DNA of 64,000 nt. It comes from an uncultured Methylophaga sp. (GTDB lineage: Bacteria; Pseudomonadota; Gammaproteobacteria; Nitrosococcales; Methylophagaceae). Position numbers and translations under genes: made by a program. The notes below the pieces were generated by a model. It worked only from the letters and a program-made list of their open reading frames with translations, did not search any database and was not told the origin of the DNA. The first letter of the stretch is position 1. Each line of letters starts with the position of its first letter. The stretch lies in assembly GCA_913055695.1 (NCBI GenBank), contig CAJXKF010000007.1, positions 1-64,000 of the forward strand, in the 5' to 3' direction. This document shows positions 53,511-64,000 of the stretch, piece by piece.

Positions 53511-54467
53511 ATGGCAGCCCATAAACCTCAGTCGCAAAAAGTACAGTTCCTGGAAATCAATGCCAATCAGGCTGGACAGCGCATCGATAATTTCCTGCTC
53601 AGTCTGGAAAAAGGCGTTCCCAAAAGCCGGATATACCGGGCTCTGCGCAAGGGAGAGGTGCGGGTCAATAAAGGCCGGATCAAACAAACCTACAAACTGC
53701 AGTCCGGCGATATCGTTCGGGTACCGCCTCTGAGGGTCACGGAAAAAAGCACACCGGAGACCATCAGTGATTCACTGAGAACAGCACTGCTGTCCAGTAT
53801 CCTGTTTGAAGACGACAGCATGCTGGTTATCAACAAACCTTCGGGCCTCGCTGTTCATGCCGGCAGCCAGATTCAGTTGGGACTGATTGAAGCCTTGCGG
53901 GTGATCAAGCCTGAACAGACTTTTCTGGAACTGGTACACCGGCTGGATCGTGATACTTCCGGCTGCCTGATGATCGCTAAAAGCCGCGACTGCCTGCTGA
54001 ATCTGCAACAGCAGATGCAGTCAGATTCCATAGATAAGCGTTACCTGACTCTGCTAAAAGGCAAGCTGCACGAGCGTGAACAGCTGGTCGAGCAGCCATT
54101 GCAGAAAAACACCTTATCTTCCGGAGAACGCATGGTGGCCGTCGATCCAGCCGGTAAAAAAGCCAAAACGCTGTTTCTGCAGCAACAGGCAATGCCACAG
54201 GCCCAGTTGACCGAAGTTAAACTGTTCACCGGACGAACTCACCAGATCCGGGTCCATGCCGCCTGGCTCGGTCATCCCGTTGCCGGAGATGACAAATACG
54301 GTGACCGTGAATTCAATAAGACCCTGAAGCTTTATGGTCTCAAGCGCCTGTTTCTGCATGCCTGGCGACTGGGCATCAAACATCCGCTTAGCGGTGAGCC
54401 GCTGCAACTGCAAGCGCCGTTGCCGGACAACCTGAAAATCGTGATAGAAAATCTGCAAAATCCATGA
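53511..54467 (+). CDS. rluC: 23S rRNA pseudouridine synthase RluC
   Basis: A 318-aa pseudouridine synthase for 23S rRNA positions 955/2504/2580 (E. coli numbering). An S4 RNA-binding domain (GQRIDNFLLSLEKGVPKSRIYRALRKGEVRVN) is followed by the catalytic domain with HRLDRDTSG (catalytic Asp) at about residues 143-151. I use ATG 53511, which matches RluC N-termini and length; GTG 53460 would add 17 unconserved residues. It is translationally linked to the HAD gene (ATGA). Confidence 0.94.
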   Translation: MAAHKPQSQKVQFLEINANQAGQRIDNFLLSLEKGVPKSRIYRALRKGEVRVNKGRIKQTYKLQSGDIVRVPPLRVTEKSTPETISDSLRTALLSSILFEDDSMLVINKPSGLAVHAGSQIQLGLIEALRVIKPEQTFLELVHRLDRDTSGCLMIAKSRDCLLNLQQQMQSDSIDKRYLTLLKGKLHEREQLVEQPLQKNTLSSGERMVAVDPAGKKAKTLFLQQQAMPQAQLTEVKLFTGRTHQIRVHAAWLGHPVAGDDKYGDREFNKTLKLYGLKRLFLHAWRLGIKHPLSGEPLQLQAPLPDNLKIVIENLQNP

Positions 54468-55126
54468 GTCAATATCAACTGATCATCTTCGACTGGGACG
54501 GGACCCTGATGGATTCCACCGGTCACATTGTCAACTGCATGCGTCAGGCCATCAGCAAACTGGAACTGGCCCCGCTGGCTGATCATGAAATCAGTCATAT
54601 CATCGGCCTTGGACTGCATGAAGCCGTGCAGACGCTGTACCCGGCGGGTAATGATGCGCTCTGGACCAGCCTGGCTGACTGTTACCGCCAGACCTGGCTC
54701 AGCAGCCCGGAACATACCCCGCTGTTTGCCAATGCCCGTGAGTTAGTGACCAGTCTTGCCGAACAGGATATCTTCCTCGGCGTCGCCACAGGAAAAAGCC
54801 GCCGTGGGCTGGATAAGGTGCTCAAAGCCACCGGACTGGGTGATCATTTTATCGCAACCCGTTGTGCTGATGAATGTCATTCCAAACCGCATCCACAGAT
54901 GCTGATGGAATTGATGGACTACACCGGCGTTACTCCGGATCAGGCGATTATGATCGGTGATACCGAATTCGACCTGATGATGGCCTGCAATGCCGGTGCC
55001 CATGGTCTGGGTATCACCCATGGTGCCCATGATGAGGCCAAGCTGTTGGCCTGCTCACCACAGGCCATCGTGCATGATCTGTATGAAGTCGAGACGTGGT
55101 TGCGGCGCACGGCAAAACAGTTCTGA
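54464..55126 (+). CDS. HAD-family phosphatase (phosphoglycolate-phosphatase-like)
   Basis: A 220-aa haloacid-dehalogenase hydrolase. Motif I FDWDGTLMDS (residues 8-17, nucleophile D9), motif II ATGKSRRG and motifs III/IV IGDTEFD are present, with a helical cap of Gph type. The substrate is unknown; a gene of this type next to rluC is common in gammaproteobacteria and is often annotated as phosphoglycolate phosphatase without proof. Confidence 0.92.
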   Translation: MSQYQLIIFDWDGTLMDSTGHIVNCMRQAISKLELAPLADHEISHIIGLGLHEAVQTLYPAGNDALWTSLADCYRQTWLSSPEHTPLFANARELVTSLAEQDIFLGVATGKSRRGLDKVLKATGLGDHFIATRCADECHSKPHPQMLMELMDYTGVTPDQAIMIGDTEFDLMMACNAGAHGLGITHGAHDEAKLLACSPQAIVHDLYEVETWLRRTAKQF

Positions 55127-55160
55127 TATCATGTCAATTTTGATTCAAGGCAGATAAAAC

Positions 55161-56144
55161 ATGGCGACATTTGGAGATTTCCCGCCTGACAATGGCGATA
55201 AAAAACCCCGCAATACAGCCGATGACAGCCAGTGGGAACGCACTGTGCTGAGAGATCTGGCTTTTGCTGCAATTAAAGAGCAGCGTGCCAAACGCCGCTG
55301 GGGCTATGTCTTCAAATTCCTGATCCTGCTTTATCTGGTCGGCTTTATGGTGCTGGCCTATTCCCCCGGCAAGTTGTCCAGCGTCGCCGAACCGCACACT
55401 GCAATGATTGATATCCAGGGGATTATCGCCGCTGATGCCGAGGCCAATGCCGACGCGATGATCACAGGTATCCGTGAAGCATTTGAAAGTGAAACCGCCA
55501 AGGGCTTAATCCTGAGACTGAACACCCCTGGTGGCAGCCCGGTGCAGGCCGGTCTTATCAATGATGAAATCCAGCGGCTAAAAGAAAAACGTCCCGACTT
55601 TCCGGTTTATGCCGTGGTGCAGGATGTCTGCGCTTCCGGCGGTTATTACATCGCTGTCGCCGCGGATGAGATTTATGCCGACAAAGCCAGCATCGTCGGT
55701 TCCATCGGTGTGCGGATGGACAGCTTCGGTCTGACCGGACTGATCGACAAGATCGGTGTTGAACGCCGCTCGCTGACCGCCGGTGAGCATAAGGCTTTCC
55801 TGGATCCCTTCCTGCCGATGCAGCAGGAGGATATCGAACATGCTAAACAGATGCTCGATACCATCCACCAGCAGTTCATTAACGTAGTCAAAGAAGGCCG
55901 CGGAGACAAACTGGCTAACAATGATGACTTGTTTTCCGGCCTGTTCTGGTCCGGTGAGCAGGCTATCGATCTGGGTCTCATCGACGGTTTTGCCGGCACC
56001 GGTAAAGTCGCCCGCGAGCTGATTGGGGCGGAAGAAGTGATTGATTACACACCCCGTCCCAATTATCTCGATCAATTCGCTGGTAAACTCGGCGCATCCA
56101 TTGCTAATCTGATGACCGAAAAAGCTAACTGGAGTCTGCAATGA
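55161..56144 (+). CDS. Signal-peptide peptidase-like S49 serine protease
   Basis: A 327-aa membrane-bound peptidase of family S49 (SppA short form). One helix (about 50-67) anchors it. The nucleophile Ser159 lies in DVCASGGYY and the general-base Lys211 in TAGEHKAF, the Ser-Lys dyad of the family. It degrades cleaved signal peptides or membrane proteins. It overlaps the next small ORF by four bases (ATGA). Confidence 0.93.
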   Translation: MATFGDFPPDNGDKKPRNTADDSQWERTVLRDLAFAAIKEQRAKRRWGYVFKFLILLYLVGFMVLAYSPGKLSSVAEPHTAMIDIQGIIAADAEANADAMITGIREAFESETAKGLILRLNTPGGSPVQAGLINDEIQRLKEKRPDFPVYAVVQDVCASGGYYIAVAADEIYADKASIVGSIGVRMDSFGLTGLIDKIGVERRSLTAGEHKAFLDPFLPMQQEDIEHAKQMLDTIHQQFINVVKEGRGDKLANNDDLFSGLFWSGEQAIDLGLIDGFAGTGKVARELIGAEEVIDYTPRPNYLDQFAGKLGASIANLMTEKANWSLQ

Positions 56145-56281
56145 GTCAGTCGCCCTTATCAGAAGAAGAGTTGAAGAAACGCCAGGAGCGGTTTCGCTAT
56201 GTCGATCTGAATCATCCGCTGATGCAGGTGTTGTTTCAGATGCAGTTGCCCGCCAAAAAACAGCCGGAGCAGCATTTATGA
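56141..56281 (+). CDS. 46-aa ORF between the S49 peptidase and HDOD genes
   Basis: ATG 56141 overlaps the S49 stop, and its TGA (56279-56281) overlaps the HDOD start. The 46-aa product is charged and helical (EEELKKRQERFRY, then VDLNHPLMQVLFQMQ). Interlocked overlaps at both ends argue that it is translated. No family is known to me. It may be a regulator or partner of either neighbour. Confidence 0.65.
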   Translation: MSQSPLSEEELKKRQERFRYVDLNHPLMQVLFQMQLPAKKQPEQHL

Positions 56282-57135
56282 GCCTGACCCCGGAAGCCCT
56301 GGTCAATAAATCGCTGGAGCTGGTGTCACCACCCAGCACCTATCTCAAACTCAATCAACTGATCCAGGACCCGGACAGTGCACTGGATGATATCAGCGCA
56401 GTGATCAATACCGACCCGGCGCTGGCAACCCGTTTGCTGAAAATCGTCAACAGCCCGTTTTACGGCTTCCCGTCGCAAATTAATACCATCTCGCGTGCCA
56501 TTACGATCGTCGGCACCCGAGAGTTGATGCATCTGGTGCTGGCTACTTCGGTCATCAATGCCTTCCGCGGCATTCCGGCTTCCCTAATCGATATGGATGA
56601 TTTCTGGCGTCACAGTTTCGCCACTGCCATTACCGCCAGATTACTCGCTGAAGAATGCGGCCAGAAAGCCACCGAACGCTTTTTCATTGCCGGGCTGCTG
56701 CATAATATCGGTAGCCTGGTGCTGTATCAGTCGCTGCCGGAACTGGCCGGCGAAGCGATTCGCAGCGCCGAGTTCGGTCATGAAGTACAATTTCAGGCCG
56801 AGCAACGCCTTATCGGTTTCGATCACACCGAAGTCGGCTACGCACTGGCCCGCGAGTGGCACCTGCCCCACTCACTGCAGGAAGTCGCGCGATATCATCA
56901 TCGTCCCTCCGATGCTGAAGACTTCCCTATCGATGTCGCGATTGTGCATATCGCCGATATCCTGGTCTCTGCGGTGCCTTTCGGTCACAGCGGTGATAAT
57001 CATGTGCCGCCGCTGGATCCCGCCGCCTGGGATTTGCTGGCCCTCAACGAGCTGCAGATGCCATTGCTGTTGCAACAGGTGGAAGAACAAATCGACCGCC
57101 TGAGTTCTGTGATGCTGACACAGGATGCGTCCTGA
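56278..57135 (+). CDS. HDOD-domain signalling protein
   Basis: A 285-aa protein made mostly of an HDOD domain (residues ~15-215), a metal-free relative of HD phosphohydrolases: LLKIVNSPFYGFPSQINTISRAITIVGTRELMHLVLATS is the signature stretch. HDOD proteins act in signalling, often with chemotaxis or c-di-GMP proteins, but lack catalytic residues. The residues H...HNIG in AGLLHNIGSLVL resemble an incomplete HD motif. It is coupled to the small ORF upstream. Confidence 0.9.
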   Translation: MSLTPEALVNKSLELVSPPSTYLKLNQLIQDPDSALDDISAVINTDPALATRLLKIVNSPFYGFPSQINTISRAITIVGTRELMHLVLATSVINAFRGIPASLIDMDDFWRHSFATAITARLLAEECGQKATERFFIAGLLHNIGSLVLYQSLPELAGEAIRSAEFGHEVQFQAEQRLIGFDHTEVGYALAREWHLPHSLQEVARYHHRPSDAEDFPIDVAIVHIADILVSAVPFGHSGDNHVPPLDPAAWDLLALNELQMPLLLQQVEEQIDRLSSVMLTQDAS

Positions 57136-57172
57136 TTTAAGTTAATGATGAAAATAAAATAAGAGGCTAATA

Positions 57173-57820
57173 ATGAGAACGGTTCTTCTCGGTGCCCCCG
57201 GCTCCGGTAAAGGCACTCAAGGTGTCGTCCTTTCCAAAAAATTCAATATCCCGCAAATCTCCACCGGTGATCTGCTGCGTGCCGCAGTCAAAGCCGGCAC
57301 AGAATTGGGTAAAAAAGCCAAAAGCGCGATGGATGCCGGTGCGCTGGTGTCTGACGACATTGTTATCGGTCTGATCCGTGAACGTCTCTCCGAAGACGAT
57401 GCCCAGAACGGCTATATTCTGGATGGCTTTCCGCGCAACATTCCACAGGCTGAAGCCCTTGATGAGATGCTGGAACAACTGGGTCAGCCACTGCAGGGCG
57501 TGGTGTTGCTGGATGTGCCTTTTAACGAACTGATGCAGCGCCTGACCGGTCGCCGTACCTGCAAAGATTGCGGCGCTATCTACAATATTTACCTGTCACC
57601 GCCCAAAACCGAAGGTCACTGTGACCGCTGCGGTGGTGAACTGTTCCAGCGTGAAGACGACAATGAAGAGACCATTGCCAATCGTCTTAAAGTCTATGAA
57701 GAGCAGACCGCGCCACTGGTTGGTTACTACGAACAACAGAACAAGCTGCATACGATTCCCGGCACCGGTGATATTGATGAGATCACCAATAAAGTCGGCG
57801 CTGTATTCGACGAAATTTAA
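57173..57820 (+). CDS. adk: Adenylate kinase with Cys4 zinc lid
   Basis: A 215-aa adenylate kinase balancing ATP, ADP and AMP. P-loop GAPGSGKGTQ is at residues 7-16 and DGFPRN near 84. The LID domain carries TCKDCGA and HCDRCGG, four cysteines that form a zinc site; this arrangement is usual in Gram-positives, while E. coli has no such cysteines. A terminator hairpin follows. Confidence 0.97.
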   Translation: MRTVLLGAPGSGKGTQGVVLSKKFNIPQISTGDLLRAAVKAGTELGKKAKSAMDAGALVSDDIVIGLIRERLSEDDAQNGYILDGFPRNIPQAEALDEMLEQLGQPLQGVVLLDVPFNELMQRLTGRRTCKDCGAIYNIYLSPPKTEGHCDRCGGELFQREDDNEETIANRLKVYEEQTAPLVGYYEQQNKLHTIPGTGDIDEITNKVGAVFDEI

Positions 57821-57828
57821 CTAATTAA

Positions 57829-57855
57829 AACCGGCCCCTGTGGGCCGGTTCTTTC
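57829..57855 (+). terminator. Intrinsic terminator after adk
   Basis: A 9-bp stem, aaccggccc/gggccggtt, with a 4-nt loop (ctgt) and a weak pyrimidine tail (ctttct). It ends four bases before the PfkB gene start, so it may also act on translation of that gene. Confidence 0.8.
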
Positions 57856-57859
57856 TCCT

Positions 57860-58723
57860 ATGGCCCGAATCCTCGGCACCGGCATTGCCACCATCGATAT
57901 CATCAATCATGTCAGCAGTTATCCGGCTGAAGATGATGAAGTGCGGGCTTTATCGCAAAAACAGGTCCGCGGCGGCAATGCCACCAATACCCTGGTCGTC
58001 CTGAGTCAGCAGGGGCATGACTGTCACTGGTGCGGTGTGCTGATTGATGAGGCTGATGCCGCTATCGTTGAGAATGACCTCAAGCATTATCAAATCGACT
58101 ATTCGCATTGCCAGTGGCTCAATCAGGGCAAAATGCCCACCTCCTACATCACCCTCAGTGAAGCCAGCGGCAGCCGCAGCATCGTGCATTACCGGGACTG
58201 CCCGGAGCTGTCATTCAGTCATTTCAGTCAGCTCGATTTAGCCGCTTACGACTGGCTGCATTTTGAAGGCCGTAATATCGATGAACTGTCGCAGATGTTA
58301 CAGTGGGTCAAACTGAATTACCCGGCACTGCGCTGCTCTCTGGAAGTGGAAAAACCGCGAACGGGCATTGAATCCCTGTTTGACCTGGCTGATGTGCTGA
58401 TGTTTTCCCGTCCCTACGCTCAGAGCCAAGGCTACCAGGCAGCTGCTGATTTCCTTGACAGTCTCCGCTCAGAAGCGCTGATGAGTTGCAGCTGGGGCGA
58501 ACAGGGGGCCTGGCTTAAGCATCAGGGCATTGTCCTGCATAGCCCTGCCTTTCCGCCAGCCCAGCTCAAAGACACCCTGGGCGCCGGAGATACCTTTAAT
58601 GCCGGTCTTATTTCAGCATTAGTCAAAGGCCTCTCTCCCGGGAAGGCACTAGAACAGGCCTGCCGTCTTGCCGGCCATAAATGCGGTCAGACCGGCTTTG
58701 CCAATCTCGATATAAAGTTATGA
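57860..58723 (+). CDS. PfkB-family sugar kinase resembling ketohexokinase
   Basis: A 287-aa kinase of the ribokinase (PfkB) fold. The catalytic motif DTLGAGDTFNAGL is near residues 239-251. Much of the protein tracks animal ketohexokinase: GGNATNTLVVLS, EASGSRSIVHY, HFEGRN, SLEVEKPR and the end AGHKCGQTGF. Those segments, not just the kinase motif, suggest a keto-sugar (fructose-like) substrate, made into a 1-phosphate; this is inference. The ATG has no clear ribosome site and begins 9 bases after the adk terminator stem. It overlaps the Rieske gene by four bases. Confidence 0.88.
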   Translation: MARILGTGIATIDIINHVSSYPAEDDEVRALSQKQVRGGNATNTLVVLSQQGHDCHWCGVLIDEADAAIVENDLKHYQIDYSHCQWLNQGKMPTSYITLSEASGSRSIVHYRDCPELSFSHFSQLDLAAYDWLHFEGRNIDELSQMLQWVKLNYPALRCSLEVEKPRTGIESLFDLADVLMFSRPYAQSQGYQAAADFLDSLRSEALMSCSWGEQGAWLKHQGIVLHSPAFPPAQLKDTLGAGDTFNAGLISALVKGLSPGKALEQACRLAGHKCGQTGFANLDIKL

Positions 58724-59064
58724 AAAAGATCTTTGTCTGCCGAAGCGACCAACTGGAAGAATATCAACCCCGCGGTTTCACTTTAGAAGCGGGTGAAGAC
58801 AGCCTCGACTTTTTTCTGCTCAAACAGGATGGTGAGATTCGTGCTTACCTCAATTTCTGCCCGCATCTCGGCATTCCGCTCAACTGGCAGCCGGATGAAT
58901 TTCTATCGGTGGAAGGCACCCATATTCAATGCGCTACTCACGGTGCGCTGTTTCAGCTGGAGGATGGCTACTGCTTTTCCGGCCCCTGTCGTGGCCAGAG
59001 CCTGACACCACTCAATATCGAAATCACTGACAGCCAGAAAGTTTACCTCGTCTCCACGGACTGA
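58720..59064 (+). CDS. Small Rieske [2Fe-2S] protein
   Basis: A 114-aa soluble Rieske ferredoxin-like protein. The cluster ligands C47-x-H49 (FCPHLGIPLN) and C71-x2-H74 (QCATHGALFQ) are complete; the 21-residue spacing between pairs is longer than in many ferredoxins. ATG 58720 is chosen because it overlaps the kinase stop; the frame opens at 58681. Such small Rieske proteins feed electrons to oxygenases or act with sugar/nucleotide enzymes. No oxygenase lies in the window, and the partner is unknown. Confidence 0.9.
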   Translation: MKKIFVCRSDQLEEYQPRGFTLEAGEDSLDFFLLKQDGEIRAYLNFCPHLGIPLNWQPDEFLSVEGTHIQCATHGALFQLEDGYCFSGPCRGQSLTPLNIEITDSQKVYLVSTD

Positions 59065-59099
59065 TAGGCTCTGAGCCATATCAGGCAAAAGGAGTTCCT

Positions 59100-60311
59100 A
59101 TGACTAATTTGCTCGATAAATGGGCAGAAGCGGCTTTCACCAGTCTCGGCTTTTTCTGGATGGCATTATGGGCCTTTGTGCTGGGTTACCTTATCAGCAG
59201 CATTATCCAGGTCATGGTGTCACGCCATGAAATGCGCAAACTGATGGGAGATGACGGCCCCAAATCGATGACGGTGGGTACGTTCTTCGGTTTTATTTCC
59301 AGCTCATGCAGCTTTGCCGCGCTGGCAACCACCCGCGCTCTGTTCCAGAAAGGCGCCAATTTTTCACCATCCATCGCGTTTCTGCTGTCTTCCACCAACC
59401 TGGTGATCGAACTGGGCTTTGTCATTGCGCTGTTTCTGGGCTGGCAGTTTGTGGTGGGCGAATATGTCGGCGGCATTATTCTGATTCTGTTTGCCTGGCT
59501 GTTTATCATGCTCACCAATCCCAGAAAACTGATTCAGAAAGCACGAGACAGGAATCAGGATGATGCTAGTGGCAGAGATGAAGAAGGCCATGCCTGGTCG
59601 CGCATTCTTGACAGGGAAATCTGGTCAGCTATCAGCCAGAAATATGTCATGGAATGGCAGATGGTCTGGAAAGACGTGCTGATAGGCTTCACCATTGCCG
59701 GCATCATTTCCGCTTTTGTCCCCACCGCCTTTTTCGAGTGGCTGTTTATCGGCGCCGGCAGCGATGACCCGGGCTTCTGGGCCCTGCTGCAGCAGACACT
59801 GGTCGGACCGGTAGCCGCCTTTTTCACCTTTATCGGCTCCATGGGTAATATTCCGCTGGCTGCGGTGCTGTTCGGTGAAGGCGTGGCTTTTGCCGGCGTG
59901 ATGGCTTTTATTTTCTCCGACCTGGTCGTGTTACCGGTGTTACGTATTAACGCCCGCTATTACGGCTGGAAAATGGCACTGTATATTCTGCTGCTGCTGT
60001 TTACCTGCCTCATCGGCACGTCGCTACTGATGCATTATGGCCTGCAGCTGTTCGACTGGTTACCGGACCGGAGCCAGTGGACCTCCCCCGCTCAGCAGGA
60101 TCATTTCCAGCTCAACTACCAGTTCTGGCTCAATGTCATATTCGGCCTGGCCTCGTTATGGATGCTTATCGTCTGGAAACGACAGCAGAACGGCGCTCAG
60201 CATGGTCACCATCACCACCATCATGGCGGTGGCGGCCAGCCGATTATGAATAGTCTTTGTGTGCTGGCGGTGATCTGGTTAGTTGTCGGCGTTATTCTGA
60301 ATCTGCTCTGA
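59100..60311 (+). CDS. Putative permease (DUF318/YraQ-ArsP type) with His-rich loop
   Basis: A 403-aa protein with about ten membrane helices. The segment GFISSSCSFAALATTRALFQKG (Cys70) and a later GSMGNIPLAAVLFGEGVAFAG, symmetric halves with conserved Ser/Cys/Gly, fit the DUF318 permease family; ArsP members export methylarsenicals, but others have no known substrate. Residues ~365-375 have a HGHHHHHHGGGG loop before the last helix, hinting at metal binding. AAGGAG precedes the ATG. The end overlaps tmcA by 20 bp. Confidence 0.85.
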   Translation: MTNLLDKWAEAAFTSLGFFWMALWAFVLGYLISSIIQVMVSRHEMRKLMGDDGPKSMTVGTFFGFISSSCSFAALATTRALFQKGANFSPSIAFLLSSTNLVIELGFVIALFLGWQFVVGEYVGGIILILFAWLFIMLTNPRKLIQKARDRNQDDASGRDEEGHAWSRILDREIWSAISQKYVMEWQMVWKDVLIGFTIAGIISAFVPTAFFEWLFIGAGSDDPGFWALLQQTLVGPVAAFFTFIGSMGNIPLAAVLFGEGVAFAGVMAFIFSDLVVLPVLRINARYYGWKMALYILLLLFTCLIGTSLLMHYGLQLFDWLPDRSQWTSPAQQDHFQLNYQFWLNVIFGLASLWMLIVWKRQQNGAQHGHHHHHHGGGGQPIMNSLCVLAVIWLVVGVILNLL

Positions 60312-62316
60312 GTAAGCCCGCCACGGCAGAGCGGCACCGTTCAATGATGGCTTTGCGGCCGCTTAACTGTAAAGCTTCCGCCACCACGGTGAAGGGCTGA
60401 CCCTGCAGTATTTTTTTGATGAGCACAGCCTGTTCCTCGTCAGGCAGGCTGGCCATTGCCCCACTGACCAGTTGCTGATGCAGCCATTGCCATAATAATG
60501 GCTCGACAGCTTCAAACGGATGTTGTTCGAAGGCAAATGCCCTGAGCACGGCAACCTGTTCCGTTTCCAGCTGAGCTGATTTGAGCGGCAGATCGCGCGA
60601 CAACATGCTCACCAGCTTTACATCCAGCGCAGATTGCGTCTGCAGCAGCATAAAAGGCCATGAACGGGCAAAAATATGCCGGGCCTTTGACACGACTGCT
60701 TCGCTCCCGATATTCAGGGCCTTGAGCAAAATCCCGGCGCGCTGACCACTGACCTCATCAGCCTGCTGCCCGACTCTGACCGGCAGATAAGCATTATTGA
60801 GCCAGAACTGCAAAAGCTCAGGTGAAAGCGCAAAGCTCGTGCCCAGAGCATCAACGCGGCCGGCATAATAGCGCTCTATTTCCTGTAGCAACCGACTGCC
60901 CAATCCCTGCCCCTGCAGGGCAGGATGCACCGAGATACGGATAATTCGCTGATAGCGGTAGCGGCCGGCATCCATCACACCACTGTGCGCCAGCAAGGTT
61001 TGCGGCAGTAATTGCCCTTTGAGACGGCGGCGGCCATTAAATACCTGACGGGCCAGATCGTCGGCAAGTGCTGCCTCTTCCACCAGCCAGGCAGAAGCAA
61101 TAACATGCCCCTCCGCCCGCAAGACCAGCACGGAGATATCATCACGCTCCAACAGCATTTGCAGATCCGACGGCCGGGTTCGGTAATGCGCCAGCGCCAT
61201 CAGGCCGAATACTTCTCTCAGCAACGTCTCGTCAGCGGCGAGAGCTTGTTTGCCTAGCACTGCCACTTCGGCTTGATGGACTGAGACCGCTGCGAGCTGT
61301 GCTTCATTGACCGGTTCAGCATCAAGCAACAGCGCATCAAAACTGAAAGCCTCGAGTCTGTCATTATTGGCCCAGCGTACCGGCTGGCTCAGCCTTATCT
61401 GCCGCCAGTTCGGCGTCAAGCTGTCCAAAGTTTTTCTGAAACGGATGGCAAAGCCGCGGCCGGTACCCTCATAACCGTGCTCAGTGGTGGCAAACACCAT
61501 ACGGGAATAATGCTGCAACAGGGCTTCCAGCATCTGTACCGGGATCGCTGCCGCCTCATCCACTATCAGTAAATCAGCAGACGGCTTGTCAGCAAGCAAG
61601 GCATCCGGGGCAATAAAACTGATCTCGGACTGCTGCCAGTGCAGACTGTATTGGCTTAGCTTTGCCCCGCTTAACAAGCGCCAGGCATGTTCCATCAGCG
61701 CTTCGATATTGTTGATTGAGGGTGCGGTCACCACAATCCGGTTTTTCCCCTGCTGAAACAGGGCCGCGGCTGCCATGCCCAGCAAGGCAGTTTTACCGCG
61801 GCCGCGATCAGAAGCAATCACCAGCGGCCGACGGCGATGACCACTGACCACATGCAACACAGCTTCAATTGCCTGTTGCTGTTCTGGGGTAGGCGTGATT
61901 TCCCTGGCTGATAGGGTTCCGGATAAATCAATAACAGGCAGTGCTTCGCCCTGACGAATCCGCTTGATCTCAGCATATGTCTCACTGATCTTGAGGAAAC
62001 GCTGCAACCAGAGCGAGTCAGGTAACTCAGCGGGTAATAACAGTAGCAGCCAGCCACCGGCACTGAGCGTGCCGATCATTGCACCAAAAGCATCTGCAGC
62101 TATGTGGGCGCGGCCATCGAAGATAATCAGCTGATTACTGCGCCCCAGTTGCTGCAGCGCCTGTTTGCTGCCTATAGCCTCAGCAACAGTATCAGACGCA
62201 TCAGAGAGCCAGCACCTTTGCGCCCTTTCTGCACGCTGATAAACCTGCTTTGCCTGCTGCTGGAGCCAGTCGCTGTCGCCCTGCAGAATAAGACAATGGC
62301 GTTGAGGCAGCTGCAT
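60292..62316 (-). CDS. tmcA: tRNA(Met) cytidine acetyltransferase TmcA
   Basis: A 674-aa enzyme that acetylates cytidine 34 of elongator tRNA-Met using acetyl-CoA and ATP. A helicase-like domain with Walker A DRGRGKTALLG (residues ~168-178) and DEAAAIP is followed by a GNAT domain (RISVHPALQGQGLGSRLL, near 470) and a C-terminal tRNA-binding tail. It lies six bases after slyX on the same strand. Confidence 0.95.
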   Translation of the reverse strand: MQLPQRHCLILQGDSDWLQQQAKQVYQRAERAQRCWLSDASDTVAEAIGSKQALQQLGRSNQLIIFDGRAHIAADAFGAMIGTLSAGGWLLLLLPAELPDSLWLQRFLKISETYAEIKRIRQGEALPVIDLSGTLSAREITPTPEQQQAIEAVLHVVSGHRRRPLVIASDRGRGKTALLGMAAAALFQQGKNRIVVTAPSINNIEALMEHAWRLLSGAKLSQYSLHWQQSEISFIAPDALLADKPSADLLIVDEAAAIPVQMLEALLQHYSRMVFATTEHGYEGTGRGFAIRFRKTLDSLTPNWRQIRLSQPVRWANNDRLEAFSFDALLLDAEPVNEAQLAAVSVHQAEVAVLGKQALAADETLLREVFGLMALAHYRTRPSDLQMLLERDDISVLVLRAEGHVIASAWLVEEAALADDLARQVFNGRRRLKGQLLPQTLLAHSGVMDAGRYRYQRIIRISVHPALQGQGLGSRLLQEIERYYAGRVDALGTSFALSPELLQFWLNNAYLPVRVGQQADEVSGQRAGILLKALNIGSEAVVSKARHIFARSWPFMLLQTQSALDVKLVSMLSRDLPLKSAQLETEQVAVLRAFAFEQHPFEAVEPLLWQWLHQQLVSGAMASLPDEEQAVLIKKILQGQPFTVVAEALQLSGRKAIIERCRSAVAGLLRADSE

Positions 62317-62322
62317 CGTTAA

Positions 62323-62526
62323 TCAGTAATGCGGCGGCGGGGGTTCGTCACTCTGCTGCATCAGTTGGGTTTGATGCATGCTTTCAAGCTGGGATTTGAG
62401 CGCGGCTATCTGGCTTTCCAGCCGGTCGATCTGCTGTTGCTGACTGGTTACCACCTCATTCAGCTGTTCCAGCAGGCCATCCTGGAAAGCGAGCCTGGTC
62501 TGCAAATCAACGATATCGTCATTCAT
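62323..62526 (-). CDS. slyX: SlyX protein
   Basis: A 67-aa coiled-coil protein: DLQTRLAFQDGLLEQLNEVV and QQQQIDRLESQIAALKSQL heptads, then a proline-rich end (DEPPPPHY). This is the SlyX size and pattern; the function is unknown. Its ATG overlaps the metH stop (ATGA). Confidence 0.92.
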   Translation of the reverse strand: MNDDIVDLQTRLAFQDGLLEQLNEVVTSQQQQIDRLESQIAALKSQLESMHQTQLMQQSDEPPPPHY

Positions 62527-64000
62527 CAGATATCTCCGTCATAGGACAGGGCCGGTCCCAGCCAGCGTTCAGCGGTGGCCATATCCCAGCCCTTACGTTT
62601 GGCGTAATCTTCCACCTGATCCTGATCGATTTTACCCAGACCGAAATAACGTGACTCAGGATGGGCGAAATAGAAACCACTCACTGCCGCGGTCGGCAGC
62701 ATCGCAAAGGACTCGGTGATGGTCATGTCGGCATGGGTTTCCGGATCAATCAGCTCCCAGAGCAATCCCTTTTCGGTGTGGTCGGGGCAGGCCGGATAAC
62801 CCGGTGCCGGCCGGATACCCTGATATTTCTCATCGATGAGGGCCTCGTTATCGAGGTTTTCTTCACTGGCATAGCCCCAGAATTCCTTACGCACACGTTC
62901 GTGCATACGCTCGGCAAAGGCCTCGGCCAGTCGGTCTGCCAGGGCTTTGAGCATGATGCTGTGATAGTCATCATGATCGGCATCAAAACGCTCGACATGT
63001 TCATCAATGCCGATACCGGCAGTCACCGCAAAGGCGCCGATATAATCATTGACGCCACTCTCTTTCGGTGCCACGAAGTCAGCCAGTGCGGCATTGGGCC
63101 GGCCCGGCGGGCGCTCGGTCTGCTGACGCAGACTGTGTAGGGTCATCAGCACCTCAGCGCGATCATCATCAGTGTAGACTTCAATATCATCATCATTGAC
63201 GCTGTTAGCCGGGAACAGGCCAATCACGGCCTTGGCGGTCAGCCATTTCTCGTCGACGATTTGTTTGAGCATTGTCTGGGCATCATGGAAAAGATGGGTG
63301 GCATGTTCACCGACAATTTCATCTTCCAGGATGCGTGGAAATTTACCGGCCAGTTCCCAGGACTGGAAAAACGGGGTCCAGTCGATGCGATCGACCAGTT
63401 CTTCCAGCGGGTAGTCGGAAAACACTTCCAGGCCGAGTTTGGCCGGTTTGGTGGGCTGATAGGCCTGCCAGTCAATTTTGGTTTTGTTGGCACGCGCCTC
63501 GGCAATCGGTAACTGACGGCGTGTGCTCTTACGGCCGGTGTGACGGGCACGCTTTTCTTCGTAGTCTTTTTTCAGCTCGGCAATAAAGCCGTCGCGGGCG
63601 TCTTTACTGACCAGTTTTTGCGCCACCCCCACAGCGCGTGAGGCATCTTTCACATAAATGCTGCAGCCGTGATAATTGGGTTCGATTTTTACCGCAGTGT
63701 GAATCAAAGAGGTGGTTGCACCGCCTATCATCAACGGCACTTCAAAGCCCAGTCGCTCCATTTCCTTGGCGACGTGAACCATTTCATCCAGTGACGGTGT
63801 AATCAGACCGGACAGACCGATAATATCGACATTTTCTTTTCTGGCGGTATCGAGAATGGTCTGTGCCGGCACCATCACGCCCAGATCGATGACTTCAAAG
63901 TTATTACACTGCAACACTACGCCGACGATATTCTTACCGATATCGTGCACGTCGCCCTTGACCGTGGCCATCAGGATCTTGCCGTTGTTCTTGCTGGTAT
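62526..64000 (-). CDS. metH: Cobalamin-dependent methionine synthase (partial, C-terminal part)
   Basis: The open frame continues in-phase to the window edge, so the real start lies beyond 64000. Encoded here are the cobalamin-binding domain with the B12 histidine motif GDVHDIG, and the C-terminal activation domain, including [18 protein letters not shown]-like AdoMet-binding residues and the family end [14 protein letters not shown]. It makes methionine from homocysteine and methyltetrahydrofolate. The N-terminal homocysteine and folate domains are missing from the window, not from the gene. It is upstream of slyX and tmcA in one transcription unit. Confidence 0.96.

Follow-up and report, generated by a model that had tools for sequence, protein, structure and literature searches.

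A ketohexokinase-like kinase of mostly Rubisco-bearing Gammaproteobacteria, often encoded beside a small Rieske protein

We found that a ketohexokinase-like PfkB kinase and a small Rieske protein, encoded by overlapping genes in a 64,000-nucleotide stretch of DNA from an uncultured Methylophaga sp. (hereafter the window; Table 1), are recurrent neighbors in Gammaproteobacteria, sometimes fused in one frame, and that the kinase marks gammaproteobacterial genomes with Rubisco. With the permease set aside, these observations are confirmed and go further than the original prediction, which had singled out kinase, Rieske protein, and a downstream permease as an unexpected set. That the kinase and Rieske protein form a functional unit, in which a kinase acting at C1 of a ketose has a dedicated redox partner in bacteria whose C1 assimilation runs through ribulose phosphates, is in our judgment an evenly balanced proposition. 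The component families are known, and as far as the literature searched extends, their combination and its setting are undescribed.

Table 1. Positions of the features discussed, in the window and in related genomes (G) and loci (L)
Sequence	Position	Strand	Feature	Basis or place
Window			HAD phosphatase, S49 peptidase, HDOD protein, adenylate kinase (adk)	upstream genes
Window			Putative pseudouridine synthase	upstream; frame translation read by eye
Window	57829..57850	+	GC-rich hairpin with T-rich tail, terminator-like	between adk and kinase start
Window	57860..58723	+	Ketohexokinase-like PfkB kinase, 287 aa, ATG start	PF00294, PDB homology
Window	58720..58723	+	ATGA in which the kinase stop overlaps the Rieske start, 4 bp	
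Window	58720..59064	+	Small Rieske [2Fe-2S] protein, 114 aa, complete	PF00355
Window	59100-60311		Permease	PF03773; downstream of Rieske gene
Window	60292-62316	opposite to kinase-Rieske pair	TmcA	beyond permease
Window		opposite to kinase-Rieske pair	MetH	beyond permease
G000 C5	181173-184363		Two 3-hexulose-6-phosphate synthase (HPS) genes	window's genome
G037 C1	2187081-2187928		Broken-looking kinase copy	window's family
G006 C6	128014-128876		Broken-looking kinase copy	window's family
L093	4601-5011		Partial second kinase match	5' of full match
L093	6001-6846		Full kinase match	
L056	3885-4202		Zinc-ribbon-like protein	5' of kinase
L059	6977-7345		Pentapeptide-repeat-like protein	3' of kinase; by eye
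L184	4209-4634		SnoaL-like gene	near Rieske gene
L195	403-5010		1536-aa multidomain protein	5' of Rieske gene
L191	3452-5464		Rieske gene and Rubisco large-subunit gene	divergent, adjoining

The assignment of the kinase is drawn from several searches that agree. Its PF00294 match (E 6.3e-29) scores 101.7 bits against a gathering score of 25.8, and in a phmmer search of the PDB the top matches were ten distinct ketohexokinase sequences (E 1.7e-63 to 3.5e-59 over residues 3-281, reaching 218 bits for the single query), the next family being sulfofructose kinase at 1.8e-11. A profile built from 18 sequences gave ketohexokinases 269-290 bits and the next match 69 bits, and by these profile scores ketohexokinases are the nearest solved PfkB relatives over the full length. 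The original prediction would have been undone by a placement among adenosine or inosine kinases together with differing neighbors in relatives; in the profile search, adenosine kinase reached 3e-06 as compared to 1.6e-85 for ketohexokinase. None of the NCBIfam sugar-kinase models came near its cut-off, the best being ribose-1-phosphate kinase at 61 bits against 330. In an alignment of 140 rows (198 matches reduced to 139 distinct, with the window's row added, and with matches weaker than 1e-25 or spanning 240 model positions or fewer left out), pocket residues D13, N40, R138, E164, K165, and D244 were conserved in every row and N43 in 139; in the GAGD-type anion hole with the catalytic Asp, A242, G243, and D244 were likewise present in all 140, and position 241 was Gly in 116 and Ala in 24. 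In the phmmer alignment D13, N40, N43, R138, E164, K165, and D244 correspond to human D15, N42, N45, R141, E173, K174, and D258, and by homology D13, N40, N43, R138, and K165 are predicted to line the pocket, with D244 as the catalytic base. A study of human KHK-A reports that D15A, N42A, and N45A are inactive whereas R141E and K174A keep 12% and 92% of activity, and that ribokinase has Glu and Lys where KHK has R141 and N42 (PMC11332825), which makes these two positions discriminating. Because of the score gap in the PDB, the pocket residues, and the lack of any NCBIfam model near its cut-off, we call the kinase ketohexokinase-like, as had been predicted, and it is likely to phosphorylate a ketose at C1.

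The Rieske protein is complete, as the original prediction had it, and matches PF00355 over residues 4-93 (E 5.5e-13, 49.1 bits against a cut-off of 20.3) with the CxH and CxxH motifs in place. Its open frame was listed from 58681, and the ATG within the overlap is the likely start because Met stands at the matching column in 16 of 17 relatives (four residues earlier in the other), where the start of each relative was taken as the Met closest to the window's own. The ATGA overlap suggests that translation of the two genes may be coupled. All 99 aligned rows (152 matches, 98 distinct, plus the window's own) keep the four cluster ligands (C47, H49, C71, and H74) together with two further cysteines, C85 and C90, so the protein belongs to a coherent subfamily. 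An AlphaFold2 model (mean pLDDT 88) predicts a fold similar to solved Rieske ferredoxins and the Rieske domains of oxygenases, with TM of about 0.65-0.75, and three NCBIfam Rieske models each scored about 19 bits, far below their cut-offs.

The link between kinase and Rieske protein rests on adjacency and fusion, co-presence being weak once Rubisco is accounted for. Kinase matches occur in 59 of 63 genomes of the window's order (E 0.001, the window's genome counted; a match at 3.9e-4 in G047 is probably a different PfkB protein), and in all 30 loci fetched from this order, which comprise the window's own and the 29 matches ranking next, the genes run adk-kinase-Rieske, which places the arrangement beyond chance. 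A class-wide sample of 369 Gammaproteobacteria, taken as one shared set for the kinase, Rieske, and PF00016 searches and including the window's genome, held the kinase in 101 genomes and the Rieske protein in 142, with both in 59 when counted from the 141 Rieske genomes individually listed. In 39 of the 101 kinase genomes (the window's included), the Rieske gene adjoins the kinase gene and shares its strand; 38 of these pairs keep the window's gene order, with gaps of at most 117 bases, and in eight of the 39 both matches fall within one open frame. With a further fusion from the window's family (L101), nine distinct fused frames were found (from 11 rows, two of which repeat one place), of which that in G207 begins at a contig end and those in G114, G329, and G423 lie in single-contig genomes. 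Pfam detected both domains in each of the four fused proteins scanned. On a kinase tree of 100 of the 101 kinase genomes (G122 left out), in which many deep forks are weak, the fused state occupies eight rows and takes three parsimony changes, two of them forced by well-supported branches, and linkage takes 18; the L101 fusion comes from a family other than those of the fusions on the tree, and in a model of its fused protein the kinase part was confident and the Rieske part without confidence. The genomic surroundings of the pair are dissimilar beyond the window's family, and no neighboring gene was common to all kinase loci without adk.

The original prediction had looked to co-occurrence of all three genes. 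This held for the kinase and Rieske protein, in 30 of 30 order loci and nine fusions, and failed for the permease, which adjoins the pair in five of the 30 order loci (the window's included, and with one locus ending inside the Rieske gene) and in four of 80 named loci, some of which end too early to judge; we therefore rejected it as a third member of the module. In 62 of the 101 kinase genomes, two with stretches too short to judge, there is no adjacent Rieske gene (42 without a listed match at E 1e-8 and 20 with the gene elsewhere), and the kinase is thus evidently workable without such a neighbor. Rieske matches were found in 59 of the 101 kinase genomes vs 82 of the 268 others (odds ratio 3.2); within Rubisco genomes the counts with and without Rieske were 52/41 for kinase carriers vs 32/50 for the rest (odds ratio 2.0, p 0.03), and 25/16 vs 17/17 (odds ratio 1.6, p 0.36) when each family was represented by one genome.

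The tie to Rubisco is much stronger. PF00016 was matched in 93 of 101 kinase genomes in the class sample vs 93 of 268 others. Under a strict count, which drops eleven weak PF00016 matches presumed to be Rubisco-like proteins, 93 kinase genomes have Rubisco and 8 lack it, the corresponding numbers among kinase-less genomes being 82 and 186. With each of 157 families represented by a single genome (G063-G219, as judged from the family codes given for the listed rows; six weak matches dropped), Rubisco was present in 41 of 43 kinase genomes vs 34 of 114 others, an odds ratio of 48, although shared ancestry is lowered rather than removed in such counts. In this set, 34 of the 75 Rubisco genomes have no kinase. 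Of the eight kinase genomes lacking Rubisco, three belong to the window's family (G000, the window's own, G022, and G028), three are less than 90% complete (G094 at 86%, G109 at 88%, and G345 at 72%), and two near-complete ones, G270 and G420, are genuine exceptions. The Rieske protein is tied to Rubisco much more weakly: among kinase-less genomes, Rubisco was found in 32 of 82 with Rieske vs 50 of 186 without (p 0.06), and with one genome per family in 17 of 37 vs 17 of 77 (p 0.015). Because the Rieske protein is somewhat commoner in Rubisco bacteria even without the kinase, the two may simply both be common there.

In the window's genome, PF00016 was unmatched, and two copies of HPS scored above the curated cut-off; their genes start about 2.6 kb apart. 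HPS without Rubisco is what is expected of a methylotroph that uses the RuMP cycle. Named kinase carriers, as seen in the best 80 of 176 loci, where many entries are MAGs without a genus, include Methylophaga, Thiohalobacter, Thiohalomonas, Thiotrichaceae, Thiomargarita, Parabeggiatoa, Venteria, and tubeworm endosymbionts, and we take those named to be sulfur oxidizers or methylotrophs; the closest named relative in these 80 is a Methylophaga MAG at 86% identity. In a phylum-wide sample the kinase was found in one of 200 genomes, the window's own, a result uninformative about other classes because all 20 further rows listed are of the window's class. Given this one in 200, and the spread over families of the draw that yielded 101 of 369 in the class, kinase carriers are a minority by species.

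One could envision a mechanism in which the kinase phosphorylates a free ketose at its C1 hydroxyl while a dedicated Rieske [2Fe-2S] protein docks onto it. Such a kinase would be retained by Gammaproteobacteria that assimilate C1 units via ribulose phosphates, whether by the Calvin cycle or by the RuMP cycle of the window's genome, where it would most likely recover or drain ketoses presumed to leak from the ribulose-phosphate cycle. Natural fusions exist, and for that reason the Rieske domain would be expected to act on or through the kinase, most likely linking its activity to cellular redox state through the cluster or the two extra cysteines; a redox switch seems the most direct reading of the fusions. 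More tentatively, and with rather less confidence than we place in the functional unit itself, the kinase may be redox-gated, with the Fe-S protein as sensor or electron partner, and constitute a branch of Calvin or RuMP assimilation in Gammaproteobacteria, so far undescribed, that serves control or salvage. The pairing and the Rubisco bias together hint at an undescribed redox-linked step in sugar metabolism. If this is true, a kinase would be governed by an Fe-S protein, and autotrophic and methylotrophic carbon metabolism would gain a new accessory component; the strong tie between kinase and Rubisco and the natural fusions render both halves of the proposal directly testable.

No known pathway had been predicted for this gene set, and the literature searched offered none. 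It contained no sugar kinase that is partnered with a Rieske protein or carries a Rieske domain (subscription journals lying mostly outside its coverage), no gammaproteobacterial ketohexokinase by title among the matches listed, and nothing on a fructose 1-phosphate kinase or xylulose in Calvin-cycle autotrophs, and a query on methanotroph ketohexokinases surfaced just an Entamoeba fructokinase. Among known systems, the closest is animal ketohexokinase (PDB 2hw1, 3nbv, and 9p6q), to which the window kinase is similar over its full length, with the fructose-contact residues and catalytic Asp retained; in contrast to the animal enzyme, it is bacterial, has a Rieske protein encoded beside it or, in some relatives, fused to it, and is carried mostly by Rubisco genomes. 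The ketohexokinase of Haloferax and Haloarcula has been shown to function in the use of mannitol and sorbitol, is described as only distantly related to eukaryotic KHKs, and is encoded in a cluster with 1-phosphofructokinase and aldolase genes (PMC11519228). That enzyme is likewise prokaryotic and shares a superfamily with the window kinase, which differs in being animal-like and having a Rieske neighbor. Bacterial fructokinases (NCBIfam NF006957) also share the superfamily, but the window kinase scores 31 bits against their cut-off of 450. The Rieske protein has its fold and CxH/CxxH ligands in common with oxygenase Rieske ferredoxins, NirD-like proteins, and the cytochrome b6f Rieske subunit; its low model scores and its invariant C85 and C90 set it apart from all of these, and the lack of an oxygenase among the nine neighboring proteins scanned from the first.

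Alternatively, the Rieske protein could be an electron-transfer ferredoxin serving an oxygenase or dehydrogenase encoded elsewhere, with the kinase preceding or following this redox reaction on a shared sugar, in one pathway and with no complex between them. Its predicted likeness to Rieske ferredoxins and oxygenase Rieske domains would fit this, as would the 20 kinase genomes in which its gene lies elsewhere and the 82 sampled genomes that have it without the kinase. However, no oxygenase or reductase gene was found among the nine window proteins scanned (54464 to 63971), none was recognized among the recurrent neighbor clusters viewed at 60 loci (four neighbors Pfam-scanned), and kinase fusions in several lineages favor contact, so we consider a free ferredoxin unlikely. 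Highly improbable, in our view, is that the two genes are neighbors through inheritance alone and functionally unlinked. The patchy linkage on the kinase tree and the weak co-presence once Rubisco is considered are what such a history would leave, but adjacency persists in dissimilar surroundings and the in-frame fusion recurs.

As to the substrate, a plain fructose kinase for fructose released by sucrose turnover would fit the frequency of PF00862 sucrose genes, which 59 of the 101 kinase genomes carry as compared to 32 of the 268 others, the association that persists when Rubisco genomes are taken by themselves (odds ratio 2.9, p 0.0008), and the sucrose-phosphate synthase of the window's genome. 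However, PF00862 was unmatched at 1e-10 in 42 of the 101 kinase genomes, the association within Rubisco genomes was non-significant with one genome per family (24/17 vs 13/21, p 0.11), and sucrose genes track the kinase largely through Rubisco. Moreover, on another contig of the window's genome, sucrose-phosphate synthase (above its cut-off), a sucrose-phosphatase-like protein (below its cut-off), and a PfkB protein whose nearest solved relatives are fructokinases are encoded in three overlapping genes, and a similar kinase adjoins the sucrose-phosphate synthase gene in three other kinase genomes examined (the synthase of G186 being recognized as a PF00862 match), although the PfkB kinases beside sucrose-phosphate synthase all score below the cut-off of the fructokinase model. 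Sucrose-derived fructose as the main substrate, weakened by the 42 genomes and the separate PfkB, is therefore unlikely, and we doubt strongly that the kinase is a plain fructose kinase. It is very improbable that the substrate is not a ketose at all (for example, a nucleoside or ribose 1-phosphate) and that the likeness to ketohexokinase is one of fold only; ribose-1-phosphate kinase was the top-scoring NCBIfam model, but the score lay far below its cut-off and far below that of ketohexokinases in the single-query search, and the fructose-contact residues are conserved.

For the step after a ketohexokinase, the TIGR03828 cut-off for 1-phosphofructokinase was passed in none of ten kinase genomes. 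A route through a 1-PFK-like enzyme may still exist because a 1-PFK-like hexose kinase of the window's genome (G000 C2) passes TIGR03168. The PPi-dependent phosphofructokinase model TIGR02477 matched none of 218 genomes at E 1e-40 and is uninformative on a link to the kinase.

The surroundings of the pair offered several minor observations. The hairpin upstream of the kinase is a neighboring feature outside the kinase-Rieske module; its 3' edge lies 9 bases from the kinase ATG, these bases contain no evident Shine-Dalgarno sequence, and kinase expression may need read-through or an unusual start. When the adk-kinase gaps of 23 relatives, drawn from 44 loci with adk, were folded, 16 gave a hairpin of -16 kcal/mol or stronger, with sequences unlike one another. 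Downstream, the TmcA gene is convergent with the permease gene, their 3' ends overlapping by 20 bases, and relatives of TmcA (about 32-57% identity) are far more divergent than those of adk or SppA. Broken-looking kinase copies, with split frames or fragments, occur in two genomes of the window's family (G037 and G006), and a tubeworm endosymbiont (L093) shows a partial second kinase match 5' of the full one, which could be an assembly effect.

Of the 36 named loci that lack adk, 12 encode a zinc-ribbon-like protein (about 100 aa; the one member scanned had no Pfam match) immediately 5' of the kinase, and six a pentapeptide-repeat-like protein just 3' of it. Around the Rieske gene, a SnoaL-like gene (one member scanned) is found nearby in six of 60 loci, with the kinase present or absent, and seven of the 60 encode large relatives of the L195 protein, which is 1536 aa long and combines cNMP-binding, rhodanese, and FGE-sulfatase domains. 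In G075, a genome with no listed kinase match, the Rieske gene is divergent from, and adjoins, the gene for the large subunit of Rubisco (L191).
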